From an uncultured Alphaproteobacteria bacterium (lineage in GTDB: Bacteria; Pseudomonadota; Alphaproteobacteria; CAAHEQ01; UBA3637): a stretch of DNA of 35,296 nt. The DNA lies in contig CALXVS010000014.1 in the NCBI GenBank assembly GCA_944392145.1, forward strand, positions 1 to 35,296, in the 5' to 3' direction. Shown here piece after piece: positions 34,659 to 35,296 of this stretch. The translations under genes and the position numbers were made by a program. The first letter of the stretch is position 1; each line of letters begins with the position of its first letter. Under the pieces are notes generated by a model that was not told where the DNA came from, did not search any database, and saw only the letters and a list, made by a program, of their open reading frames with translations.

Positions 34659-34704
34659 ACTTTTCTTTTTTTTCAATCTGTTATCGTGCTATTAAAATCG
34701 TTTC

Positions 34705-34720
34705 AAAAAGGAACCTTTTT
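34705..34720 (+). terminator. Possible weak terminator after the carboxypeptidase gene
   Basis: AAAAAGG and CCTTTTT flank just two bases and are followed by more T. The stem is short and AT-rich, so termination would be weak. An inverted relative of the same sequence recurs at 34838-34852. Confidence 0.35.
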
Positions 34721-34792
34721 TTGCAACTGTTTTTTTTATGATTTTTGAAAAAAAGAAAAATTAGCTGATTTTGCTTTTAAATAAGTATGTTA

Positions 34793-34824
34793 GGACAAAA
34801 AAATCCCGTTATTTGTTTTTGTCC
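34793..34824 (+). other. Inverted repeat upstream of prepilin-like gene
   Basis: GGACAAAAA (34793-34801) is perfectly complementary to TTTTTGTCC (34816-34824), with a 14-nt loop. It may be a leader hairpin or a protein-binding site. No coding frame or clear promoter is seen in the rest of the 34659-34901 gap. Confidence 0.5.
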
Positions 34825-34833
34825 GATTCGGGC

Positions 34834-34859
34834 GTTACAAAAAGGTTCCTTTATGTAAC
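34834..34859 (+). promoter_or_regulatory. 26-bp palindrome just upstream of prepilin-like gene
   Basis: GTTACA (34834-34839) and TGTAAC (34854-34859) enclose AAAGG-TT-CCTTT. Twelve positions per arm have one mismatch. It ends 32 nt before the ribosome binding site GGGAGG, which fits an operator or leader hairpin. Confidence 0.5.
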
Positions 34860-34901
34860 ATAAAGAACAGGTTGAAACCAAGCTGTTTTATGGGAGGTTA
34901 C

Positions 34902-35296
34902 ATGTGGAACGTATTTAAAAAGGTATGGGTTAAGGGAAAAGGGGTTAAAGCGGTTTTGTCGGATGCTTGCAACATCGGTTATGCCGACGGGGGAGACGTC
35001 ACGAATGGTGAAAGAACCCTTTCCCCGCAACACTTTCCCTGGCGGTCATCCTTGCGTATGCGAGGATCCAGGCAACATGAATTCCGCTTTTTAGGGACGT
35101 TGACATATCGCGAAAATAAGGACTCTTTGTCCTGGATGCCCGATCAGGTCGGGCATGACAGCTGGGACGATACCACACCTAGTGACATCCCGTCCCCGTC
35201 CGTGTCCTCCCGCCGTCCTCTTTTGTCCGAAACAGGTCGTTCTATGATAGAGATGTTGGGGGTCTTGGCCATTATCGGCGTGTTAAGTATTGCTGC
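34902..35296 (+). CDS. Prepilin-like protein with a long leader, 3' end outside window
   Basis: The ATG at 34902 has a strong GGGAGG site and the frame stays open to the window end (131 codons seen). The last residues read ETG-RSMIEMLGVLAIIGVLSIA: Gly at -1 and Glu at +5 of a type IV prepilin cleavage site, followed by the hydrophobic pilin helix. The leader before the cleavage site would be 111 residues, whereas prepilin leaders are usually under about 30. Much of it is encoded by a palindromic repeat element. A GTG at 35202 would give a normal 12-residue leader but lacks a ribosome binding site. Sorting as a pilin or pseudopilin is likely; the mature domain lies beyond the window. Confidence 0.72.
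   Translation, partial: MWNVFKKVWVKGKGVKAVLSDACNIGYADGGDVTNGERTLSPQHFPWRSSLRMRGSRQHEFRFLGTLTYRENKDSLSWMPDQVGHDSWDDTTPSDIPSPSVSSRRPLLSETGRSMIEMLGVLAIIGVLSIA
35045..35159. repeat. Paired palindromic repeat element inside the prepilin leader
   Basis: The left arm 35045-35072 begins GTCATCC and ends GGATCCAGG. The right arm 35131-35159 begins CCTGGATGCCC and ends GGGCATGAC, matching the left arm's reverse complement at both ends. Each arm is itself a hairpin; the right one is TGCCCGA-TCAGG-TCGGGCA. This is the style of dispersed intergenic palindromes and Rickettsia palindromic elements. It is visibly GC-richer than nearby DNA. I saw no second copy in the window. Confidence 0.7.

Follow-up and report, generated by a model that had tools for sequence, protein, structure and literature searches.

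Rickettsia palindromic elements (RPEs) are short dispersed palindromic repeats of ~100-150 bp; they lie within alphaproteobacterial protein genes, in the reading frame, and become part of the protein (reviewed in PMC10969869, citing Ogata et al. 2000). Type IV prepilins carry class III signal peptides, for which the published leaders are 6-26 residues long, or ~15-30 residues in type IVb (PMC4471445). Invertible promoters have been described in gut bacteria, for example Bacteroides fragilis (PMC4747536, PMC10939037).

The locus described here shares features with each of these systems and departs from each. As with the RPEs, a palindromic dispersed repeat of ~120 bp lies in frame in genes (its translation is inferred); RPEs enter unrelated genes, whereas here every in-gene copy found lies in a prepilin leader within one gene family, and the elements of different genera are mostly dissimilar in sequence. 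No sequence kinship to RPE families is claimed. A published small-repeat case is similar in that a repeat element adds coding sequence to a cleaved export signal; it concerns one gene and a signal predicted with SignalP, whereas many genes, a leader on the cytoplasmic side and several genera are involved here. The likeness to class III prepilins extends to Gly(-1), Glu(+5), a hydrophobic N-terminal helix, a prepilin peptidase and a type IVb pilin-like predicted fold, but the leaders reach 136 codons, and the body, whose C-terminal part is long and rich in cysteine, has no match in Pfam or NCBIfam. The likeness to invertible promoters is a short segment that is flanked by inverted sites, lies ahead of surface-protein genes and is found in both orientations; the difference is that it precedes type IVb-pilin-like genes in an alphaproteobacterial family and that neither the recombinase nor an effect on expression has been identified. 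A literature search returned RPEs, RU-2 and prepilin reviews, with nothing on repeat-built prepilin leaders and nothing on the pilins of this bacterial group, although its coverage was incomplete and absence is unproven. Both parts were already known, and what is new here is an RPE-like process combined with a class III leader.

The pilin gene at the end of the window

The window, that is, the whole stretch of 35,296 nucleotides that was analysed, is contig C14 of a 49-contig draft genome of 1.45 Mb (G000) from an uncultured alphaproteobacterium; all of the genomes compared are uncultured drafts. Contigs of G000 frequently break inside pilin-family genes, and the window contig does so at both ends. 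Features are collected in Table 1. As the preliminary description had stated, a Shine-Dalgarno (SD) sequence and ATG lead into 111 stop-free codons and a prepilin site with Gly at -1 and Glu at +5. The Gly codon is at 35235, and the reading frame runs off the contig end. The site, G/RSMIEMLGVLAIIGVLSIA (slash at the cut), is of the G/RSMIEMLG type, and the prepilin criterion of Gly(-1), Glu(+5) and ~20 hydrophobic residues is met. The leader-length criterion is not; the description of the leader as far longer than those known for prepilins holds, provided that the long form is made. An example of a leader stretch is GVKAVLSDACNIGYADGGDVTNGER.

Table 1. Positions of features in the window
Feature	Position	Strand	Basis
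Shine-Dalgarno GGAGGT (within GGGAGGT)	34893..34898	+	Direct sequence reading; other long leaders of G000 have equivalent SDs
Start module MWNVFKKVWVKGKGVKA	34902..34952	+	Whole or partial in 8 genes, window gene counted
Putative prepilin leader of 111 codons, with Gly(-1)	34902..35237	+	SD and open frame; paralogues and relatives compared
Palindromic dispersed repeat element in the leader frame	35041..35160	+	~70 matches in the genome; folding z -2.9
Hairpin 1 of the element, peptide SSLRMRGS	35047..35071	+	Direct reading and folding; recurs in seven paralogue leaders
Hairpin 2 of the element, peptide WMPDQVGHD	35134..35159	+	Direct reading and folding
Alternative GTG start of the preliminary description; unsupported	35202..35204	+	SD score 0; missing in 8 of 14 long leaders
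Start of mature pilin-like protein, RSMIEMLGVLAIIGVLSIA, cut by contig end	35238..35296	+	Family alignment; paralogue modelled with AlphaFold and matched to type IVb pilins by Foldseek
C-terminal portion of a second pilin-family protein, opposite contig end	1..1611	+	Cysteine-rich; contig begins inside the gene
Invertible-element copy preceding the pilin gene, with an interior between two near-palindromic 26-bp sites	34700..34859	+	Paralogous copies

The pilin body had no match in Pfam or NCBIfam, and fold prediction was therefore used. The AlphaFold model of the first 200 residues of paralogue C3, counted from Gly(-1), had a pLDDT of 87 and contained an N-terminal helix at residues 4-55 (52 residues) and a beta sheet. 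Its best PDB matches by Foldseek were the type IVb pilins 9iuf (E 3e-4), 3fhu and TcpA. The criterion for a pilin fold, a long N-terminal helix with a C-terminal beta sheet, is met by the C3 model, the window copy being truncated; on this prediction the mature part models as type IVb-pilin-like. Residues G, R, S, M and E of the motif are invariant in a family alignment of 40 relatives, as are Cys103 and Cys130. In the gene at L029:1-3570 (- strand), mature residue ~150 is followed by a long C-terminal region that is rich in cysteine, contains many CxxC-type units and has no match in Pfam. A prepilin peptidase (PF01478) scoring over the cut-off is encoded at G000:C36:8723-9043, and exactly one PF01478 peptidase was found in each of 30 genomes.

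Repeat-built leaders in the genome and its relatives

The pattern GRSM[IV]EMLG was found at 31 places in G000, one of them with a mismatch, whereas the reversed control pattern was found at none. Fifteen of these heads have ordinary short leaders of 5-16 codons, most commonly exactly 15, which satisfy the published prepilin leader length. In a further 14, an SD precedes a leader of 46-136 codons that lacks stops and consists largely of dispersed palindromic repeats. The remaining two are a head in which a poly-C tract shifts the ATG out of frame and another whose motif is imperfect. The long leaders are mosaics in which a start module, either MWNVFKKVWVKGKGVKA or M[HR]FKxxFNKGVFFK, is followed by repeat pieces in either orientation and then by the cleavage site. 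The pieces include SSLRMRGS, SWILVSSTRMTWTW, WMPDQVGHD and ANNTASFVGDIFPNKRALSQCRYDSAL, the last of which is itself a hairpin; hairpin 1 of the window element also occurs in the leaders of C3b, C3a, C1a, C35, C37, C12b and C11. The long leaders are mostly positively charged and are hydrophilic, with a maximum 19-residue Kyte-Doolittle value of 0.99 versus 1.8-2.55 in the mature helices of the same genome. The 14 leaders share ancestry and are hence not independent cases.

The element in the window folds as two hairpins whose outer bases also pair (-52.7 kcal/mol), confirming the palindromic element that had been proposed to be read in the leader frame. The genome search proposed at the same time returned the matches given in Table 1, mostly in intergenic arrays, besides the repeat-built leaders in 14 of the 31 pilin heads. 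None of 103 copies examined outside the pilin genes lay in a recognised gene, the overlapping ORFs having had no family search; these ORFs look like open-frame by-products of repeat arrays. As a control, copies in intergenic arrays were open in the entry frame of the leader in only 8 of 34 cases. Set against these control copies, the stop-free state of the leader repeats exceeds chance. Leaders folded better than shuffled sequences on average (mean z -2.4 versus +0.3 for the mature part), but several, including both 111-codon copies of this genome taken whole, folded no better. The structure therefore looks like a by-product of the repeats and not a common structure, and an mRNA hairpin function as the main role of the repeats was rejected. 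Separately, a decayed relic was observed at G000:C9:23870-23994 (L460:870-1170), where a start module and a repeat piece remain but no pilin follows.

The pilin family was found in all 32 searched relatives of the same bacterial family; outside that family but within the class, a match was obtained in only 2 of 24 genomes. Two other genera include at least five relatives with in-frame palindromes in prepilin leaders. In one genome of another genus (G002), leaders of 15, 48 and 63 codons begin and end alike, with steps of 99 and 45 nt between them, the series being MSQNQKNKTPCHPEL, MSQNQKNKTPCHAELVSASIKHDVFFSHGCPIKSGMTERFDHTARSEL and a 63-codon form. Leaders in G025 contain KIPAFAGMT-type repeats, and those in G026 contain chains such as AGSSGSADAAPRMT, CHCE...SHSFAMT and CHPWTSVSEIRGS, reaching 111 codons; one such leader has 61 matches within G026. 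One clear case of a repeat leader apiece was found in G021 and G003. The repeats of the relatives are unrelated in sequence to the window element as a whole, although short stretches of it recur in G002 and G021, mainly the GCCCGATC...GGGCATGAC hairpin.

Probable switches and the histories of leader and mature part

Many pilin genes of the genome are preceded by an element of ~160 bp with near-palindromic 26-bp sites of the form GTTACAAAAAGG-AA/TT-CCTTTATGTAAC. In the window copy the sites occupy 34700-34725 (core AA) and 34834-34859 (core TT), and paralogous copies occur at 16 further places, mostly upstream of pilin heads. The 139-bp interior is flipped between the same flanks in two copies, G000:C8:59-213 (L040:59-213) and G000:C39:11736-11892 (end of L210). 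The C39 interior is identical to that at C8:32114 at 139/139 positions when inverted versus 56/139 when direct, and the C8:59 interior agrees with that at C1:109549 at 131/139 positions inverted versus 53/139 direct. These values show that site-specific inversion has taken place among paralogous loci. The criterion for an invertible switch (inverted sites around a short segment, both orientations found) is met between paralogous loci; both orientations at one single locus were not seen, and no inversion of the window copy was observed. An XerC-like ORF was the only recombinase-like ORF seen in the loci examined. The orientation of the flipped segment relative to promoter hexamers, judged by eye, was ambiguous. 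In several relatives, paired palindromic sites ~100-140 bp apart also lie upstream of pilin genes.

Homopolymer tracts were found at two kinds of position. Poly-C tracts of 7-14 follow soon after the SD-preceded ATG inside pilin leaders at L056 (G000:C4:64443), L069, L089 and L267, and in G000 the C8 tract shifts the ATG out of the pilin frame, as in slipped-strand switches. Poly-G tracts of 9-19 directly follow a TTGACA-like box upstream of pilin heads at L131, L229, L236 and L276, where a change in length would alter promoter spacing. Given the invertible element and the tracts, the pilin family is likely to be controlled by phase variation, with the reservation that there are no expression data and that the recombinase is unidentified.

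C3a and C1a hardly differ in their leaders (pS 0.083) but are saturated in their mature parts (pS 0.76), and the opposite holds for C12b and C11, in which the mature parts (first 55 codons) are near-identical (pS 0.026) and the leaders differ (pS 0.20). Judged from these divergences, leaders have evolved along separate lines from the mature parts. Among 8 loci, identity is 94-98% in the upstream regions and start modules.

Inferred translation of the leaders and competing explanations

In the 14 long leaders of the genome (1201 codons), no stop occurs in frame versus 19 and 75 in the other sense frames; the corresponding counts are 0 versus 31 and 37 in G025 (347 codons) and 0 versus 51 and 45 in G026 (689 codons). 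Frame 0 is stop-free by the way in which leaders were selected, and only the complete set from G000 and a frame-blind test escape this. In the latter, SD-preceded ATGs 140-420 nt upstream of the motif were open to it in 28 of 53 cases when in frame and in 0 of 63 when out of frame. Since one alternative frame of the leaders in G000 is also stop-poor (the 19 stops above) and repeat arrays elsewhere also contain long open frames, openness alone is weak evidence. The chance of about 0.8% calculated earlier for 100 stop-free codons is right for one ORF; the useful test lies in the paralogues and relatives. Synonymous changes between close leaders numbered 24 of 63 versus 17.4 expected, a weak excess equalled or passed in 94 of 2000 simulations, and synonymous and nonsynonymous counts were set aside as too weak to prove coding. 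In some relatives poly-C tracts lie between the SD-preceded ATG and the motif, and since a tract there acts as a switch only if the leader is translated, they count for translation. A frame that is kept while residues are nearly free fits the expectation for a disposable segment.

We consider it probable, in the absence of proteomics, ribosome profiling or a cleavage assay, that the repeat-built leaders are translated, remain cytoplasmic and are cut off, and that repeats in frame are tolerated there. The precursor of the window gene would be translated from the ATG at 34902, the only strong start of the gene; the leader of ~112 residues would stay in the cytoplasm; and the single prepilin peptidase of the genome would cut after Gly at G/RSMIE. 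Mobile or recombining palindromic repeats that land in frame in the leader would be tolerated because it is discarded and needs only frame and hydrophilicity, and they would have been gained many times, in several genera and from mostly unrelated sequences. Long-form translation, cleavage and near-neutral tolerance as the cause are inferences. The comparative evidence fits the RPE-like insertion into a cut-off leader that the preliminary description proposed, but no in-gene copy outside prepilin leaders was confirmed. No frameshift or stop beside an intact pilin motif, which would have refuted it, was seen in repeat-built leaders.

If the repeat region were instead 5' untranslated RNA, translation would start near the cleavage site, either at the GTG at 35202, previously offered as the true start should the long form not be made, or at ATGs supplied in frame by the repeats, which often end in ATGAC; the repeats could then be mRNA hairpins. 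The GTG would give a leader of 12 residues, near the 15-residue short class, but no SD precedes it and only 6 of the 14 long-leader paralogues contain it, which leaves that proposal unsupported. In four paralogues of the genome (C35, C37, C12b and C11) the 31 codons before the cleavage site include no start codon, so that a conventional leader is impossible there and even the shortest possible one exceeds the published 6-26 residues. Untranslated DNA would also not be expected to hold frame in every copy and in other genera, or strong SDs to be retained at the distal starts, and this explanation is considered unlikely. Less credible by far is a chance open frame or an assembly artefact, in spite of the window contig ending within the gene and further contigs also ending in pilin heads, as the same structure lies inside contigs with full-length proteins (e.g. 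C3, C1, C9 and C11) and the pattern recurs in other genomes.

A different question is whether long leaders are kept for a function such as translation control, membrane targeting or homology for the swapping of a 5' cassette comprising invertible element and leader. The separate histories of leaders and mature parts and the near identity of the upstream and start regions speak for it. Leader length and sequence nevertheless vary freely (46-136 codons), residues are only weakly constrained, long leaders are absent from many paralogues and relatives, and ordinary gene conversion could also yield shared cassettes; a retained function is possible but doubtful. A related proposal, advanced only tentatively, is that the prepilin leaders of this bacterial family serve as a general landing zone and switchboard ahead of phase-variable pilins, in which invertible element, poly-C frame switches and palindromes form 5' cassettes swapped between pilin genes and the leader, elsewhere a tag of 6-26 residues, is a fast-evolving genetic device.

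Prepilin leaders are usually described as short. If disposal of translated repeat-built leaders is the correct explanation, prepilin peptidase and membrane insertion would accept almost any cytoplasmic extension, and the leaders would be a natural experiment on where selfish palindromes survive in genes, namely in a segment that is translated yet discarded. The genes belong to a large unannotated type IVb-pilin-like family in gut alphaproteobacteria, with DNA-inversion and homopolymer switches, that is likely a variable surface coat in these hardly studied bacteria.
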